A DNA stretch of 5,547 nt from Planctomycetota bacterium (GTDB lineage Bacteria; Planctomycetota; UBA11346), in NCBI GenBank assembly GCA_024641365.1, contig JAHEDF010000290.1, forward strand, positions 1-5,547. The letters are read 5' to 3'. Numbering within the stretch: the stretch's first letter is position 1; the number at the start of each line of letters is the position of its first letter. Under the pieces are notes generated by a model. The model saw only the letters and a program-made list of their open reading frames with translations. It did no database searches and was not told the origin of the DNA. Shown piece by piece: positions 1 through 5,547 of this stretch. Made by a program: the position numbers and the translations under genes.

Positions 1-609
1 ATGTAAATTACGCTTTAAACAGGCGATGCCATATAATCCCGATCCACCGCCAACATCTAATAACGTTGAAACACCATGTAATGGTAAACGGTTTGCTAAA
101 ATGGGACCAACATTGCGTGCGCGACTTGCTAAAGCCATGGTCAAACGTCGTGCGCTGGCCGCGTGATCCATGGCTGAATCCATGCCATCACGAAAAATAA
201 ATGCTGCGCCGCCATCATCAGCAGCAAATCCTTTTGGTTTATTATCCCGTAATCGTTCAACCATTGCCATAACGCCGGGCATATCTGCTGATAAACCGAC
301 ATAATCATCTATCGCAAATTGACCGCCAGAAACTAAATGCTCTTGTGCTAATTCACTTAATGCTAATTGACCGTCGCGATCAACTAACATACCCATTGCT
401 TTTAAGACGGTAAACATCACGTGAGCTGGTCGCTCTGCTAGGCCAATGGCAGCACGTAAATCAGTGAAGCTCAATGGACCTTGTGCGAGTCGATCAAAAA
501 CTTTGAAATGGGCACTGGCGGCAATTAATAATTCACTGCCTAAATGCGCACGATGAAAATCAAAAATTGGTGTGGGATCGGTCAGCGGAGGCGTCAGTGG
601 ATTAGTCAT
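1..609 (-). CDS. SAM-dependent O-methyltransferase, winged-helix type (3' end outside the window)
   Basis: This leftward frame is open for 203 codons from ATG at 609 to the window edge, so the C-terminal half is missing. Residues about 25-95 look like the winged-helix dimerisation domain found at the N-terminus of plant- and bacterial-type small-molecule O-methyltransferases, including a stretch LFK-like 'MFTVLKAMGML' at 65-75. A helical linker follows. Residues 183-191, LLDVGGGSG, are SAM-binding motif I of the Rossmann fold. By family the enzyme would move a methyl group from SAM to a hydroxyl of a small molecule; the substrate cannot be told because the catalytic His/Glu region lies beyond the edge. 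No other start is available upstream: the frame holds no ATG, GTG or TTG before a stop at 682-684. The ATG at 609 has no Shine-Dalgarno sequence, but a short frame with a good one ends just inside this gene (see 602-685). The family call is firm, the exact function unknown. Confidence 0.85.
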   Translation of the reverse strand, partial: MTNPLTPPLTDPTPIFDFHRAHLGSELLIAASAHFKVFDRLAQGPLSFTDLRAAIGLAERPAHVMFTVLKAMGMLVDRDGQLALSELAQEHLVSGGQFAIDDYVGLSADMPGVMAMVERLRDNKPKGFAADDGGAAFIFRDGMDSAMDHAASARRLTMALASRARNVGPILANRLPLHGVSTLLDVGGGSGLYGIACLKRNLH

Positions 610-685
610 GATGCGAGGTTCTAGAGCGGTGCCGCCGCAATTGAAAGCGAGAGCCGTGCCATGATCTCCTCGCTTGAGCGATCAT
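602..685 (-). CDS. Possible 27-residue Arg/His-rich leader peptide upstream of the methyltransferase
   Basis: The frame starts at ATG 685 and ends at TAA 602-604, encoding 27 residues with seven Arg and four His (MIAQARRSWHGSRFQLRRHR at the start). AAGGAG at 692-697 sits 6 bases before the ATG, the best Shine-Dalgarno match in this intergenic stretch. The stop codon lies 5 bases downstream of the A of the methyltransferase start, which itself lacks a ribosome binding site. This is the layout expected for translational coupling by termination-reinitiation. I infer that the frame is translated mainly to deliver ribosomes to the methyltransferase; it could instead be a sensing leader. No homolog is recognised and the frame is short enough to be chance. 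Confidence 0.4.
   Translation of the reverse strand: MIAQARRSWHGSRFQLRRHRSRTSHHD
661..685. repeat. Imperfect palindrome between the divergent genes
   Basis: ATGATC at 661-666 and CGCT at 671-674 are matched by AGCG at 677-680 and ATCAT at 681-685, with a TCCT insertion breaking the left arm. A competing stem can form from AAGCGAG (645-651) and CTCGCTT (669-675). The right arm covers the start of the 27-codon frame, so it may be an operator or an RNA hairpin. No regulator is encoded nearby. Confidence 0.3.
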
Positions 686-691
686 ATGCCG

Positions 692-697
692 CTCCTT
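692..697 (-). promoter_or_regulatory. Ribosome binding site of the 27-codon frame
   Basis: On the minus strand this reads AAGGAG, 6 bases before the ATG at 685. It is not at a usable distance from the methyltransferase ATG at 609, so if it works at all it works for the short frame. Confidence 0.45.
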
Positions 698-710
698 ACT
701 CTTCTTACAA

Positions 711-717
711 AGAGAGG
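711..717 (+). promoter_or_regulatory. Ribosome binding site that fixes the start at 724
   Basis: AGAGAGG lies 6 bases before ATG 724. The longer in-frame start at 661 has no Shine-Dalgarno sequence, and the 21 residues it would add are not membrane- or signal-like and run into the divergent gene's leader region. The start at 724 is therefore preferred. Confidence 0.7.
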
Positions 718-723
718 CTCGTA

Positions 724-1428
724 ATGTCACAGGACCAACAGCCACATAAAGCAAAAAGTACATTTATTCCGTGGCTGATTGCATTTCTGGCAATTATAGG
801 TGCCGTAATTGTTCTCTACCAGTCGCGGATGCTATCGAATAACATACAAAATAAACCCAATAGTTCATCAAATAACGGTCAGGAGATGGAGGCATTACAC
901 GCTGAAATTACTAAAATTAAACAGCGTCTCGTTGCATCTGAAAAATTGGTTACTGAAATCGCTGATCTCGAACGAGTTTTAAGTGATGCGCAAAGTGCTT
1001 TAGCGGAGCGCGATCGTGAAATAGCAGCCGCTCAGGCAGAAATTAAAGCGCTTAAATCTTCACCATCTGCAACTACATCGTCGTCGTTAGCTGATCAATT
1101 AAGTTCGTATTTAAAACAACAGCACACACCGCATTTGTTGATGCTGATGAAAGAGCGCAATATTGGACTCGTCATATCCGCGACCGAACAACAAGCCGTG
1201 CTGCTCCTCTGCCAACCTTTCCCCACTGAGGACAACGGCGCTGGCCTTGAGTTATGGAGTTTGTCGCCTCAACCTCAGCGCTTGGCAGTTATCACAAGCA
1301 CCACAACGGCTTTTACCTGGCCAGCCAATGTCTCAATCAACACACCAATAAGCCTCCATTGGGCGTCAGGTGACCAGGCACCAGGACCGGCTTTTGCCCA
1401 CAGCACACAGGTAACCTTTAGCAAATAA
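724..1428 (+). CDS. Single-pass membrane protein with coiled coil and RskA-like C-terminal domain
   Basis: The product has 234 residues from the preferred start. A short charged N-terminus (1-13) is followed by one membrane segment at about 14-32 (FIPWLIAFLAIIGAVIVLY), then a Ser/Asn-rich linker (38-52), a heptad-like Glu/Lys/Leu-rich coiled coil (53-111), a Ser/Thr linker (112-121) and a C-terminal globular domain (about 122-234). The positively charged N-terminus suggests that the coiled coil and last domain are periplasmic. The last domain carries a pattern of the RskA anti-sigma-K family: LELW at 175-178, followed by LAVITSTTTAFTWP, then SLHWASGDQAPGPAFA at 210-225, comparable to the family's 'LAVSLEP-GGSP-GPV' stretch. 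This similarity was judged by eye and is weak. There is no cytoplasmic anti-sigma (zinc-finger) region before the membrane segment and no ECF sigma gene beside it. It could be a stand-alone envelope protein rather than a regulator. Function unknown. Confidence 0.75.
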   Translation: MSQDQQPHKAKSTFIPWLIAFLAIIGAVIVLYQSRMLSNNIQNKPNSSSNNGQEMEALHAEITKIKQRLVASEKLVTEIADLERVLSDAQSALAERDREIAAAQAEIKALKSSPSATTSSSLADQLSSYLKQQHTPHLLMLMKERNIGLVISATEQQAVLLLCQPFPTEDNGAGLELWSLSPQPQRLAVITSTTTAFTWPANVSINTPISLHWASGDQAPGPAFAHSTQVTFSK

Positions 1429-1703: not shown

Positions 1704-2738
1704 ATGAACGCACCCATTGATACTTTGCCGCCTGCGGAACCAGCTACAACGCCAGTTGAAGCCGAATTGCCACCGCCGCCATCAATAATGATTCGTATGT
1801 TGCGTACGGTGCGAGTATGGTTTGATAGTCACTCCAGCATGCAATCTGAAGCAGATGGCAGAGTTCCACTTAAAGTGGACTGGCTACGTCTTTTGCCGTT
1901 CATTGGCGTCCACTTTGCTTGTTTAAGTGTGTATTGGGTCGGATGGAGTTGGGTCGCTGTCGGCGTCGCCCTAGGCATGTACGTACTGCGCATGTTTGCT
2001 ATCACTGGCTTTTACCATCGCTATTTTTCACATCGTACTTTTACCACTAGTCGCGTCATGCAATTCTTAATGGGCTGCATGGGAAATAGTTCGGTGCAGC
2101 GCGGACCATTGTGGTGGGCTGCTCATCATCGCCATCATCACAAATACAGTGATAAACCAGAAGACAGCCATAGTCCGCGCCAGCACGGATTTTGGTGGGC
2201 TCATGTCGGATGGATCAGCGCACATGCCAATTTCCGGACCGACATGAAATCAGTACCGGACCTTGCCAAATATCCTGAATTAGTTTTGTTAGATCGTTTT
2301 GATACCACAATCCCAATATTATTGGGTGTCGGCATGTTTTTCCTCGGCTATGGTCTCAACATGTGGTGGCCCGAACTCGGCACCAGCGGCGGACAAATGT
2401 TGGTGTGGGGTTTCTTTATTTCGACCGTCGCCGTCGCACATGGCACCTTCACGGTAAATTCACTGACCCACATTTGGGGTAAACAAGATTATCCTTCAAA
2501 CGACGATAGTAAAAACAGCTTGCTTATCGCCTTAATTACCTTGGGTGAAGGCTGGCATAATAACCACCACTATTATCAATCCACGGTACGCCAAGGCTTC
2601 CGCTGGTGGCAAATAGACATCACTTATTATGGACTGTGGATGATGTCAAAACTCGGATTAATCTGGAATTTAAAACCCGTACCAGCTAAAGTTGTCGCTG
2701 ATCGTGGAAAATTGTTAGAGCAGGAACCTGCTGCGTAA
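1704..2738 (+). CDS. Membrane fatty-acid desaturase, delta-9 (acyl-CoA/acyl-lipid) type
   Basis: This 344-residue protein belongs to the membrane di-iron desaturases, which use O2 and electrons from a redox partner to place a cis double bond (typically delta-9) in a saturated acyl chain and so control membrane fluidity. All three histidine boxes are present: HRYFSH at 105-110, HHRHHH at 141-146 (within WWAAHHRHHHKYSD) and HNNHH at 285-289, plus the extra family motif NSLTHIWG at 252-259. Hydrophobic segments at about 63-82, 83-103, 203-222 and 230-250 fit the usual four-helix hairpin topology, with the His boxes facing the cytoplasm. A Pro-rich stretch of about 28 residues precedes the conserved part. 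An internal start at Met29 is conceivable, but neither start has a clear Shine-Dalgarno sequence. No fused cytochrome b5 or ferredoxin domain and no reductase gene is seen. It has its own promoter with a palindrome over the -10 box. Exact regiospecificity and acyl carrier are inferred from family only. Confidence 0.93.
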   Translation: MNAPIDTLPPAEPATTPVEAELPPPPSIMIRMLRTVRVWFDSHSSMQSEADGRVPLKVDWLRLLPFIGVHFACLSVYWVGWSWVAVGVALGMYVLRMFAITGFYHRYFSHRTFTTSRVMQFLMGCMGNSSVQRGPLWWAAHHRHHHKYSDKPEDSHSPRQHGFWWAHVGWISAHANFRTDMKSVPDLAKYPELVLLDRFDTTIPILLGVGMFFLGYGLNMWWPELGTSGGQMLVWGFFISTVAVAHGTFTVNSLTHIWGKQDYPSNDDSKNSLLIALITLGEGWHNNHHYYQSTVRQGFRWWQIDITYYGLWMMSKLGLIWNLKPVPAKVVADRGKLLEQEPAA

Positions 2739-2748
2739 TTATTAATAG

Positions 2749-2772
2749 AATTTTTAACCGAGATTAAAAATT
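2749..2772. terminator. A/T-only inverted repeat between convergent genes, possible bidirectional terminator
   Basis: AATTTTTAA (2749-2757) and TTAAAAATT (2764-2772) are perfect 9-base inverted repeats around CCGAGA. The repeat begins 11 bases after the desaturase stop and overlaps the TAA of the leftward ATPase gene (2771-2773). Each strand ends the stem with a run of A/T. The stem has no G-C pairs, so it would be weak for an intrinsic terminator, but its place between convergent genes supports the role. Confidence 0.45.
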
Positions 2773-4420
2773 ACCGTCTGAGCGATTCCGGAACAAATTC
2801 TGGATCCGATGCTTCGGCAATAGCAAGGTCGATTTGAAATTGCATCGTCGCTGCGGGAATGGGGCTTTGATACCCCGTTAAGCAATCTCGTAAGGCTTCA
2901 ATTGGCGTCTGGTTTTCCGTGCGCGATAGACGGTACGCTTTTACCGCTATGGCTTCTGCAGCACCCGGGGTCAACAAGTGAGGCACGATTGGTTCGAGGG
3001 TCGCGGCTTCTTCATCACTAATAATTAATTCGCGGCGCTTACCAAGCGCACGTAATAAGCGTAATCCCTGTGCCGCCGTTGTGGTCGGGAAAATAGGTAT
3101 GCGCACATCTATACGACCTGGGCGTTTCAAATCGACCTCAATTAAATCGGGTCGACTGCTCGCTAATATCCACACCACTTTACCACGATTTTGTGTGTCT
3201 GACATTTCTTCTGCCATCATGGCATAAATGCGACCATTTATGCCACCGGCATCATTGCCACCTTGATCACGTTTTCCTAAGGCTTGGTCTGCTTCATCAA
3301 TAAAAACAAAACAGCGACCTAAAGCATGAATGAGGCGGAATATTTTTTCTAAATTACCTTCCGTCGACCCGACCCATTTATCGCGGAAATTTTTTAGCTT
3401 CACTACCGGAACACCTGCTTCACCGGCTAAACATTCGACCAAAAATGTTTTTCCGGTGCCTACTGGCCCGCACAATAAATACCCCATTGGCATGGCTTGT
3501 AATTCACCTTGTTTCCACAAGGCTACATCTTGGCGTAACCATTTTTTAATTGGTTCACCAGCTTCATAGTCATCTAAACTGCGATGTGATTCAATAAATT
3601 CGATAAGTCCGGCGCATTCTCGTTCCACCATTAATTTTTTGATGCTGAGTAAATCGGCTTCCACCAATGGATTGTTGGTGTGTTCGCGTAATTTTAATAA
3701 GGCTTCCAAGGCACTAAGCGTTGTACCGGCTAATAATGCTGCTGGTTTTGCAAAATCTTCAACAAACGCACTTAACGCCTTGGGGTATTGTGCTTTTAAT
3801 AATTTGAGCGTCGCGGCAATTTCTTCTGCTGATGGCAAGGGAATGCTAACCCTCGTAGCACGTGGATTTGCTGCGACGAGCGGATGCAAATCACTCATGT
3901 TGTCAGCCATTAAAAAAGTAGCGACAGCTTGTTCAGCAATGGCGCCATCACTGGCCCAATCACGAATTAGGCTGGCCATCGCATTTGTTTCCGCTGCTTT
4001 ATACGGAGTCGCTGGTACCATTAAATCCGCAGAGCGAATTAATACCCCAACCTGGGTACGACCTTGTCCTAACCGTGCTAAATTCGCGGTGTAGCGCAAA
4101 TAATGGGTAATGAGATCAACCGCTTCTTTCGCGCCGCGTGGCATAGTTGGCGCGTCTTTCATGCGCGACCATTTAGCAATAACATCGCCACCACGTTCAA
4201 CGCGCAGTCCATTGCCTAAATCATAACTAAACACCACATCAAAACGTGGCAGCATCACCTTAATTAAAAAATCATTGAGCGAGCCGAGTTGACCACCCTC
4301 TATCGGCAAAACCATGCGATCATGGACATTACCTGCCAATATAAATTGTGCGGTTGCACCACTTTCGTAACCAGTAATTAAATCTTTTGCCCACGCGGGC
4401 AGCGCCGGTGATTGGCTCAT
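2771..4420 (-). CDS. Two-domain AAA+ ATPase, probable partner of the PspA-like protein
   Basis: From ATG 4420 the product has 549 residues. The C-terminal half is a complete AAA domain: Walker A GPVGTGKT at 318-325; a Gly-containing loop and helix DKWVGSTEGNLEKIF at 347-361; Walker B FVFIDEAD at 371-378 with catalytic Glu376; a sensor-1 strand WILASSRPD at 417-425 with Ser where Asn is usual; arginine-finger-like Arg433 and Arg436 in DLKRPGRID; and a sensor-2 helix LTPGAAEAIAVKAYR at 483-497. This pattern is that of ring-forming classical AAA unfoldases such as Vps4, katanin and FtsH. Residues about 1-200 look like a degenerate AAA domain: GNVHD at 30-34 where a P-loop would lie, a Walker-B-like strand VGVLIRSADLMVP at 124-136, and a sensor-1-like stretch ATFLMADNMSDLHP at 167-180. 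No signal peptide or membrane segment is seen, so it is cytoplasmic. A GTG at 4462 would add 14 residues but lacks a good ribosome site. The gene follows pspA after 113 bases on the same strand. I infer that it remodels PspA polymers. Confidence 0.88.
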   Translation of the reverse strand: MSQSPALPAWAKDLITGYESGATAQFILAGNVHDRMVLPIEGGQLGSLNDFLIKVMLPRFDVVFSYDLGNGLRVERGGDVIAKWSRMKDAPTMPRGAKEAVDLITHYLRYTANLARLGQGRTQVGVLIRSADLMVPATPYKAAETNAMASLIRDWASDGAIAEQAVATFLMADNMSDLHPLVAANPRATRVSIPLPSAEEIAATLKLLKAQYPKALSAFVEDFAKPAALLAGTTLSALEALLKLREHTNNPLVEADLLSIKKLMVERECAGLIEFIESHRSLDDYEAGEPIKKWLRQDVALWKQGELQAMPMGYLLCGPVGTGKTFLVECLAGEAGVPVVKLKNFRDKWVGSTEGNLEKIFRLIHALGRCFVFIDEADQALGKRDQGGNDAGGINGRIYAMMAEEMSDTQNRGKVVWILASSRPDLIEVDLKRPGRIDVRIPIFPTTTAAQGLRLLRALGKRRELIISDEEAATLEPIVPHLLTPGAAEAIAVKAYRLSRTENQTPIEALRDCLTGYQSPIPAATMQFQIDLAIAEASDPEFVPESLRR

Positions 4421-4426
4421 TGCGTT

Positions 4427-4430
4427 ACCT
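4427..4430 (-). promoter_or_regulatory. Ribosome binding site that favours the ATPase start at 4420
   Basis: The minus strand reads CAGGTAACGCA before ATG 4420; the core AGGT is 6 bases from the start. The upstream in-frame GTG at 4462 is preceded by TTTCCTC, with no purine-rich site. Confidence 0.5.
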
Positions 4431-4479
4431 GTAATAAAATACCTGCCTGACCACGTAGCCACGAGGAAAGTATTTTTCC

Positions 4480-4503
4480 ATGACTACATACTGTGACAGT
4501 CAT
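4480..4503. repeat. Inverted repeat in the pspA-ATPase gap
   Basis: ATGACT (4480-4485) and AGTCAT (4498-4503) are exact inverted repeats 12 bases apart, with a nested CTGTGACAG palindrome at 4491-4499. It lies 60 bases before the ATPase start. It could be an operator for an internal promoter or an mRNA processing hairpin. I could not find a convincing -35/-10 pair with it. Confidence 0.35.
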
Positions 4504-4517
4504 ATACTATTCCTATT

Positions 4518-4551
4518 GGTCCGCTTAGCCCAATTAGCCCGCTTGCGGACC
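4518..4551. repeat. Inverted repeat spanning the pspA stop codon
   Basis: GGTCCGC (4518-4524) and GCGGACC (4545-4551) pair perfectly around 20 bases that contain the pspA TAA (4534-4536) and a TTAGCCC direct repeat (4525-4531, 4534-4540). In the leftward mRNA this G/C-rich stem closes the end of pspA and is not followed by a U-run. It may protect the pspA message or reduce read-through into the ATPase gene, setting a polymer-to-ATPase ratio. Confidence 0.4.
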
Positions 4552-5301
4552 CATGCTCTTAGGAGCAGTTTGTCCAGCATCTGCCGCTGGTGCTTCGCTC
4601 GCGGCAGGTACTGGACTACCATCTAAAGTTATACCTTCTGCTGCTGCAAAATCAGCCAGTGCCATATCGGCTAACGCTTTTTGCTCAGCCTCTTTAATAT
4701 TCACTTCATTCATGTTGAGCGAATCGCGTGCAACCCGAGCGCGACCAGCTGCTTTATTGCGTTCATCTTCCACCATTTCATGTAAGCGATTGAGCGTATC
4801 GCCAGCACCACCAATTTCGCTGATCATGCCACTGGCCATTTCGGTCATTTCTGCCATAGCCTTTTTCATCTTCATATCTTCGATGGCGCCCTTGAGCGAT
4901 TCCATTTTTGCTTTTGCCGCCGTAATTGCGACATCGCGCGATTTCATTAAATTCTTATAGGTTTCTTCCGCTTGGGTTAACTGCATGCGGTTTTCTTCTA
5001 ATTCTCTCGTTACCGTTTGTAGGCGCATGGCATATTGTGCAGCGGCATCACGACTTCCGGCACGCAAATGTGCGGTCGTCTTTGCGCGCAGGTCACGTTC
5101 TTCAGTTTCTAATTTTTTAACTTGCCCCATCAGGCGTTCGCACAAGCCAGCATGTGATGCTAACCCCTGGTTGTACTGTCCAATTTGTTTACGGAGATTT
5201 TCTTTTTCGACTTCAAGTAACGCTTCTGGGTTGCGCTTTTCGATACCAGTTATGAAAAGGCCCAAAAAGCCTTTGAACAGATTGGCGATGCGACTAAACA
5301 T
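4534..5301 (-). CDS. PspA/IM30-family membrane-remodelling protein (bacterial ESCRT-III-like)
   Basis: The 255-residue product starts with an amphipathic helix (MFSRIANLFKGFLGLFITGI, 1-20), which in PspA and Vipp1/IM30 binds negatively charged or stressed membrane. Residues 21-215 are almost entirely helical and rich in Lys, Glu, Met and Ala, typical of the long coiled-coil hairpin of this family. The segment after the first helix, EKRNPEALLEVEKENLRKQI at 21-40, is the most recognisable family stretch. A flexible Ala/Pro-rich tail covers about 225-255. Family length is about 220-260, so the protein is complete. By family it forms rings or rods on the cytoplasmic face of the inner membrane and stabilises or reshapes it under stress. 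The classical partners PspB, PspC and PspF are not in the window. Instead an AAA+ ATPase gene follows on the same strand. Start support is good: GGGAG and AAGGA lie just before ATG 5301. I do not give the symbol pspA because sequence similarity to E. coli PspA is only at family level. Confidence 0.85.
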   Translation of the reverse strand: MFSRIANLFKGFLGLFITGIEKRNPEALLEVEKENLRKQIGQYNQGLASHAGLCERLMGQVKKLETEERDLRAKTTAHLRAGSRDAAAQYAMRLQTVTRELEENRMQLTQAEETYKNLMKSRDVAITAAKAKMESLKGAIEDMKMKKAMAEMTEMASGMISEIGGAGDTLNRLHEMVEDERNKAAGRARVARDSLNMNEVNIKEAEQKALADMALADFAAAEGITLDGSPVPAASEAPAADAGQTAPKSMGPQAG

Positions 5302-5390: not shown

Positions 5391-5418
5391 AACTAAAAGG
5401 ACATAACTAAAAGGACAT
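5391..5418. repeat. Perfect 14-base tandem duplication at a stop codon
   Basis: AACTAAAAGGACAT occurs at 5391-5404 and again at 5405-5418 with no mismatch. On the coding (minus) strand the first copy encodes the last residues Met-Ser-Phe and the TAG of the upstream gene; the second copy lies just after the stop. It looks like a recent slippage duplication. Confidence 0.85.
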
Positions 5419-5547
5419 TGCGCGGTCCGCTCCGTGTCCAATTGGCGGATAATTACGTGACGAATCATCCAAAACCAACACCCAATCTTCCTTGTTTGGC
5501 GGGGTAAAGACACGCGTGCCACGGACTGGAAATTGACCAAGCCAACG
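5407..5547 (-). CDS. C-terminal end of a protein with a collagen-binding-like (Collagen_bind_2) tail, possible GH140/DUF4038 glycosidase
   Basis: Only the last 46 residues are in the window; the frame is open to the right edge and stops at TAG 5407-5409. The segment RWLGQFPVRGTRVFTPPNKE followed by DWVLVLDD at 21-28 resembles the end of the 'putative collagen-binding domain' that closes DUF4038/GH140-type glycoside hydrolases, where the usual pattern is W-x-D-P-x-T-G, a Gly-rich turn, F-x-P-P and DWVLVL. Here the first motif is altered to RWLGQF. Such proteins are usually exported and act on plant polysaccharides such as apiose-containing pectin. A further 18 residues (29-46) extend beyond the domain. 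The gap to the PspA-like start is 105 bases on the same strand, so co-transcription is possible, but no functional link is obvious. The call rests on a short motif. Confidence 0.55.
   Translation of the reverse strand, partial: RWLGQFPVRGTRVFTPPNKEDWVLVLDDSSRNYPPIGHGADRAMSF

Follow-up and report, generated by a model that had tools for sequence, protein, structure and literature searches.

Ravi et al. 2024 (PMC11237479) described PspA together with a protein that contains an inactive N-terminal AAA+ domain and a second AAA+ domain, and proposed ATP-dependent remodelling of the Vps4 type. In ESCRT-III, Vps4 associates with the MIT-interacting motif (MIM), which lies in the C-terminal part of the protein (PMC8281802), and a Vps4-like ATPase lacking MIT, encoded behind a gene weakly similar to PspA, sets a precedent from archaea (PMC10936438, example WP_014555335.1). 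Escherichia coli PspA, with PspF, PspB and PspC, is likewise a PspA-family protein beside an AAA+ protein, PspF being an NtrC-type AAA+ enhancer-binding protein (PMC11237479); Liu et al. 2021 (PMC8281802) left open whether PspF acts like Vps4 and whether an equivalent ATPase assists Vipp1. Slow ATP hydrolysis by PspA itself has also been reported (PMC11746142, PMC12358876), and in a survey of how the Psp response is distributed among taxa (PMC9239133) the two passages found on AAA and ATPase both belong to the reference list. Here we present a pspA gene and the adjoining gene for a tandem AAA+ ATPase from a 5,547-nucleotide stretch of Planctomycetota DNA (contig JAHEDF010000290.1; hereafter the window, to which all coordinates refer unless a locus is named), together with a survey of related loci and genomes.

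The window holds a pair of the kind described by Ravi et al. (PMC11237479), in that the neighbour of pspA encodes two AAA+ domains, the N-terminal one without a Walker A motif; the likeness to their pair (PspA example AEY64321.1) is judged from its description. Because both the pairing and the Vps4-like idea were already reported in that paper, neither is new, and novelty of the pairing, which an initial annotation of the window, made from its letters alone, had placed in its architecture and mechanism, is not supported. What is added here is the co-occurrence of the two genes even where they are unlinked, a motif in the PspA tail assessed with controls, and the assignment of the ATPase as Cdc48/FtsH-like. 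Neither the tail motif nor the unlinked co-occurrence was found in the available parts of the literature searched, which did not extend to supplementary texts, where the motif may be described. Co-inheritance and the tail tag suggest that the motor pulls a remodelling polymer apart as Vps4 does, and we consider it somewhat more probable than its contrary that the PspA polymer has its own dedicated recycling motor, recruited through the tail motif.

The initial annotation was right in placing a AAA+ ATPase gene on the same strand as pspA; both genes lie where it had put them, in the minus-strand order pspA, then ATPase. Residues 2-214 of the PspA protein match the Pfam family PspA_IM30 at 39.1 bits, above the curated cut-off of 33.9. 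The open frame of the ATPase starts from a GTG at 4462 (563 amino acids), whereas the database entry begins at the ATG at 4420, which leaves about 113 bases between the two genes. A terminator scan found no terminator-like site on the minus strand between them, and the scans for sigma-70 and terminator sites yielded site numbers below shuffle expectation. The features of the pair are given below; conservation counts refer to 77 ATPases, from those of 80 loci in which both the ATPase and the PspA were usable (all but L037, L044 and L079).

4534 to 5301, minus strand: pspA, encoding a PspA/IM30-family (ESCRT-III superfamily) protein of 255 amino acids (Pfam PspA_IM30).
4537 to 4638, minus strand: variable linker and C-terminal tail, PspA residues 222-255, of high entropy and following a conserved ALADFAA helix.
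4546 to 4560, minus strand: tail motif KSMGP, PspA residues 248-252, a candidate ATPase docking motif from the tail comparison.
2771 to 4420, minus strand: tandem AAA+ ATPase, 549 amino acids from the ATG, with an open frame reaching an upstream GTG.
3611 to 4420, minus strand: N-terminal pseudo-AAA+ domain, ATPase residues 1-270, without Walker A (predicted AAA+ fold, predicted local distance difference test score 94.8).
2774 to 3610, minus strand: C-terminal AAA+ motor domain, ATPase residues 271-549 (Pfam AAA and motifs).
3446 to 3469, minus strand: Walker A, GPVGTGKT (Walker A in 77/77 relatives).
3368 to 3394, minus strand: putative pore loop 1, KNFRDKWVG, with Trp-Val (pattern in 74/77 relatives).
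3287 to 3310, minus strand: Walker B, FVFIDEAD (77/77 relatives).
3146 to 3163, minus strand: sensor-1 region ASSRPD, ATPase residues 420-425 (ASSRPD or ATSRPD in 77/77 relatives).
3113 to 3124, minus strand: arginine-finger box RPGR (77/77 relatives).

ATPase loci were fetched with a profile of 24 relatives; of 493 confirmed stretches the 80 best-scoring were taken, so that sequences close to the window are over-represented. Going by their record titles, the 80 loci span Planctomycetota, Verrucomicrobiota, Acidobacteria, Proteobacteria and others, with Luteolibacter pohnpeiensis, Steroidobacter agaridevorans and Pseudoxanthomonas wuyuanensis among the named carriers, the nearest locus being that of a Planctomycetota metagenome-assembled genome (L001, ATPase identity 81%). 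The pairing of pspA and the ATPase gene is not due to chance, since pspA precedes the ATPase gene on its strand at 58 of the 80 loci: 57 were found by locus scan, and in the remaining one, L079, where the ATPase frame is broken by Ns, a genome search put pspA about 55 bases upstream (by arithmetic from coordinates). The distance from the end of a close PspA to the ATPase downstream is below 300 bases in 39/80 loci and 300-1700 bases in 18. No PspA was present in the fetched DNA of 18 loci with at least 2 kb upstream and of four with less than 2 kb. All 22 genomes of these unlinked loci hold exactly one close PspA elsewhere (23/23 when the genome of L079 is included); in L062 both genes lie at contig ends and may be neighbours separated by a contig break, and in L004 the PspA gene appears about 12 kb from the ATPase gene on the same contig. 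The neighbourhood survey proposed in the initial annotation thus came out in favour of the pair, ATPase homologues not lying mostly away from pspA genes.

Co-occurrence was determined in three genome samples centred on G011, G015 and G002, each chosen for holding the ATPase. Matches were counted as close at E < 1e-100 for PspA and E < 1e-200 for the ATPase (as applied to the Verrucomicrobiota). Regarding the 188 genomes of the Verrucomicrobiota class sample, close PspA and close ATPase each occurred in nine, the same nine, and the genes were adjacent in only three; two further genomes with a mid-score PspA lacked the ATPase, even at E 1e-20, and five had only weak ATPase-like matches (1e-65 to 1e-88) and no PspA in a narrower profile search. 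Among 246 Planctomycetota genomes, nine held a close PspA and eight a close ATPase, all eight among the nine; the ninth, G656, holds an ATPase fragment (profile positions 8-158) near a contig start. The G015-centred class sample (Proteobacteria by record title, 274 genomes) contributes only double absences, as its sole PspA and sole ATPase are those of the centre itself. In total, close PspA was found in 19/708 genomes and the ATPase in the same 19 (one as a fragment, three being centres), or 16 and 16 of 705 genomes without the centres. Because the limits were set after a score gap had been seen and related genomes are not independent, no probability is attached to these figures.

The association extends to less similar sequences. 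Seven mid-tier PspAs (2.8e-60 to 5.1e-52) and six mid-tier ATPases (9.9e-153 to 2.0e-145) were found in the Planctomycetota, the six genomes being among the seven; the seventh, G613, has a motif-bearing PspA and no detected ATPase. A PspA_IM30 family match (E 0.001) was obtained for 29 of the 33 ATPase-positive Planctomycetota (E up to 1e-60), the four without one being G485, G543, G572 and G590, compared with 41/213 others (G656 included). Outer-tier pairs lie side by side on the same strand in seven genomes (G612, G651, G705, G615, G547, G696 and G563). Ravi et al. (PMC11237479) call the pairing occasional, whereas here the co-occurrence holds even for unlinked genes, and the ATPase appears to be dedicated to this clade of PspAs. 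Mirror trees gave distance correlations of 0.71 for 22 unlinked and 0.58 for 55 linked pairs (maxima in 2000 permutations, 0.31 and 0.22, respectively), with 40/74 splits shared; they are not used as evidence of interaction because they include no species-tree control.

The tails were compared for 88 of the 89 unique closed strong-tier PspAs, including that of the window (L015 was excluded, its tail lying in another frame; the open or broken PspAs of L082/L159, L044 and L037 are outside the counts). The linker before the motif Met measures 17-35 residues (median 24) and is very variable in composition; a Met motif is present in all 88 unique tails. The motif of paired PspAs is typically K-S/T-M-G-P, with variants such as a terminal Met (M-COOH), KEMAP, KDLGP and KTIG. 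Classes drawn up after inspection of the tails were [KR]xMG (57), other xMG (13), xM[ATS] (9) and tails ending at the Met (9). MG occurs in 70/88 tails (mean 14.2 and maximum 27 in shuffled tails) and MGP in 53/88 (mean 1.4 and maximum 8 in shuffled tails). The seven mid-tier tails, that of G613 included, all carry KQMGP, KDMGP, KDLGP or KEMGP, as determined by reading.

Regarding the 16 outer-tier PspAs assigned to an ATPase, [KR]x[MIL]G, mostly KTIG, was found within 30 residues of the end in 15 and within 40 residues in all 16. Seven of them adjoin the ATPase gene; the other nine lie apart from it and owe their assignment to similarity, either because they resemble the Pfam family less than the other copy does or because they were the only copies found. 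This count omits L114, whose tail KTIGPVS makes it a second motif-like PspA in G563, and L193, which has an internal stop, and the tails of L115-L118, L120 and also L119 had been viewed before classification. Family matches without a fetched locus (including a further strong copy in G612) and the weak matches L160-L162 and L167 are outside the counts. Genome G563 (L114, L195, L135 and L138) holds two motif-bearing PspAs and two ATPase matches, one pair of which is adjacent, possibly a duplicated system.

Control PspAs were scored with patterns of differing strictness, within 40 residues of the end unless stated otherwise. The strict pattern [KRG][ST][MIL]G was present in 57/88 close, 0/7 mid-tier and 12/16 outer-tier PspAs and in none of the 66 unpaired PspAs, i.e., 0/6 other paralogues of ATPase-positive genomes and 0/60 PspAs of ATPase-negative genomes (0/34 Planctomycetota, 0/24 from the Proteobacteria sample and 0/2 Verrucomicrobiota). 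For two of the six paralogues, those of G612 and G547, the copy used for comparison adjoins the ATPase. A difference from the E. coli-type arrangement is that the strict motif is absent from the PspAs of the ATPase-negative genomes examined, a set outside which E. coli PspA itself lies. The pattern [KR]x[MIL]G matched 0/6 paralogues, 5/34 Planctomycetota, 0/24 Proteobacteria and 0/2 Verrucomicrobiota controls, the five matches falling, by eye, within the usual terminal helix. [MIL]GP was found in 53/88 close, 7/7 mid-tier and 6/16 outer-tier paired PspAs and in 0/6, 0/34, 1/24 and 0/2 of the same control groups, respectively. The most permissive pattern (a Met at the very end or preceding G, A, T or S, or else [KR]T[IL]G) covers all 88 close tails and discriminates poorly because controls also match: 3/6 paralogues, 12/34 Planctomycetota, 2/24 Proteobacteria and 0/2 Verrucomicrobiota, or 3/6, 4/34 and 1/24 of the first three groups within 30 residues of the end.

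The initial annotation had assigned the second domain of the ATPase to the Vps4/katanin type, an assignment contradicted by what follows. Structure prediction yields two AAA+ folds within one chain, the layout of a tandem classic AAA+ protein. The Pfam AAA match is confined to the C half (90 bits; residues 328-456, numbered in the 563-residue frame), and no Pfam family lies above cut-off in the N half, where a Walker A (GxxxxGK[ST]) was found in 0/77 relatives, a bare GK[ST] in 9/77 and DE after hydrophobic residues in 1/77. With its Walker A missing, the N-terminal copy is probably catalytically inactive. The best sequence and fold matches are the tandem AAA+ unfoldases Cdc48/p97, AFG2/Drg1 and Rix7. 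The NCBIfam scores were 73 bits for CDC48 (TIGR01243, cut-off 802.65), 66.5 for FtsH, 53.9 for PAN and 32.1 for CdvC (cut-off 650), none of them near its cut-off. The box RPGR, which we take to be the arginine-finger box of the Cdc48/FtsH type, is present in 77/77 relatives, and RRRF, presumably that of the meiotic clade (Vps4/katanin), in 0/77. A Vps4/katanin class is rejected on the profile scores together with RPGR in place of RRRF; judged from its motifs and profile scores, the motor is Cdc48/FtsH-like rather than Vps4/katanin-like. Compared with Cdc48, AFG2 and Rix7, with which it has the tandem layout in common, the window ATPase lacks Walker A in the first AAA+ domain, scores far below the CDC48 cut-off and has Ser at sensor 1. 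The sensor-1 residue of AAA proteins is usually Asn; here it is Ser in 77/77 relatives. The role of KNFRDKWVG as pore loop 1 is presumed from other AAA proteins.

On this basis we tentatively propose, as a more specific reading that falls a little short of an even chance, an independently evolved bacterial counterpart of the ESCRT-III/Vps4 system, in which K/R-x-M/I/L-G-P in the tail of a dedicated PspA paralogue would be the functional analogue of the MIM, a dead AAA+ ring would read it in place of the MIT domain, and a motor of the Cdc48/FtsH type would dismantle the polymer. In the recycling-motor reading favoured above, the flexible C-terminal tail of PspA would, through its short end motif (KSMGP here), recruit a ring-forming AAA+ ATPase, the motif occupying the position that the MIM has in ESCRT-III. 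The catalytically dead N-half ring would offer the docking platform to which the tail binds, and the active C-half ring would thread PspA subunits by its Trp-Val pore loops, so remodelling or dismantling the PspA polymer, possibly at the membrane. Vps4 has an aromatic pore loop. The likeness to ESCRT-III/Vps4 (CdvB/CdvC) consists of a presumed ESCRT-III-superfamily polymer, an AAA+ motor with such a loop and a flexible C-terminal tail that ends in a motif. The differences are RPGR instead of RRRF, a CdvC score far below cut-off, and a pseudo-AAA+ domain occupying the place of MIT in Vps4, neither MIT nor Vps4_C having a Pfam match in the ATPase at E 0.1. Any likeness to Vps4 would be convergent, since the motor is of the Cdc48/FtsH type and has no MIT domain. 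In the archaeal ATPase without MIT (PMC10936438), compared by description, the N terminus carries a domain akin to the one found at that end of VAT, a Cdc48-like protein, whereas the N-terminal domain of the window ATPase is a predicted pseudo-AAA+ domain. If the proposal is correct, a bacterial PspA that recruits its own motor through a motif would bear directly on the question of PspF and Vps4 raised by Liu et al. (PMC8281802) and open it to a test with a single short peptide, and a polymer with a recycling motor would seem to have arisen more than once.

Several points weigh against a dedicated recycling motor. The co-occurrence rests on 19 phylogenetically non-independent genomes, three of them chosen as centres, with score limits for 'close' set after the gap had been seen, and is equally compatible with two proteins acting on a third. 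Genome G613 has a motif-bearing PspA and no detected ATPase, four Planctomycetota genomes (G485, G543, G572 and G590) have the ATPase match and no PspA-family match, and the five weak ATPase matches of Verrucomicrobiota are likewise without PspA in the narrower search. The motif has variants (M-COOH, KEMAP, KDLGP, KTIG), and the strict pattern covers 57/88 close, 0/7 mid-tier and 12/16 outer-tier PspAs; its looser patterns also match control PspAs, its classes were fixed after the tails had been seen, and 9/16 outer-tier PspAs are unlinked and assigned by similarity. The Ser at sensor 1 throughout the relatives is unusual for an active AAA+ motor. Finally, as PspA is reported to hydrolyse ATP slowly itself (PMC11746142, PMC12358876), a separate motor may be unnecessary.

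The relation could also run in the reverse direction, PspA being an adaptor or inhibitor that holds the ATPase at stressed membranes by its tail, with a membrane or envelope protein as the client. A precedent is E. coli, where PspA is termed an AAA+ adaptor controlling PspF, and PspA as a regulator fits all pairing data equally well. Possible clients are encoded at some loci: proteins of family f2 (about 240-380 amino acids, by eye with a membrane segment and a coiled coil; two were scanned, neither matching Pfam) near the pair in 15/80 loci (e.g., L006:8447-9247 and L074:11647-12495), solute-binding/OmpA proteins of family f4 in 13/80, and solute-binding or solute-binding/vWA proteins of family f16 in 4/80 (L061, L074, L050 and others include f4/f16). 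The f2 protein is a possible membrane partner, and the f4 and f16 neighbours resemble the longer operons of Ravi et al. (PMC11237479). However, no single third client is conserved nearby, each family being too rare to count as a conserved third component, and the position of the motif, at the extremity of a disordered tail, is what would be expected if a pore engaged PspA as substrate, though it suits tethering too. We regard this reverse relation as unlikely.

Less likely again is an assembly chaperone or loader, i.e., an ATPase that maintains PspA in soluble form or delivers it to membranes and dismantles no polymer. Ravi et al. (PMC11237479) suggest AAA+ and other chaperone partners in the assembly of sub-membrane complexes, but the Trp-Val pore loop and the intact motor motifs fit threading and unfolding. 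Least probable is that the motif has another role (protease degron, membrane contact or transporter) and that ATPase and PspA are merely co-selected in one stress pathway: loose forms of the motif occur in some unpaired PspAs, but [KR]x[MIL]G tracks the ATPase-assigned copy in multi-PspA genomes (0/6 other paralogues), and the strict form is in 0/60 PspAs of the ATPase-negative genomes examined.

Two further candidates were rejected. Long open reading frames in L017, L072 and L028 looked promising as PspA-ATPase fusions, but pspA is a separate open reading frame there. A defence system was considered; PADLOC gave mainly IetA matches on the AAA domain (best 40.1 bits) and, for PspA, weak matches of coiled-coil type. 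Regarding the remainder of the window, a fatty acid desaturase gene (1704-2738, plus strand; PF00487, 63.3 bits) is convergent with the ATPase gene, and a frame of 255 amino acids (661-1428, plus strand) shows, by eye, a membrane segment and a coiled coil, with no family above cut-off. The edge-open frame at 1-609 (minus strand) shows weak, sub-cut-off similarity (20.7 bits) to a model of CrtF-type methyltransferases. In L001, the gene upstream of pspA encodes an apiosidase-like glycoside hydrolase (PF13204, 215 bits), which the C-terminal end of a frame at 5407-5547 (minus strand) of the window matches by eye.

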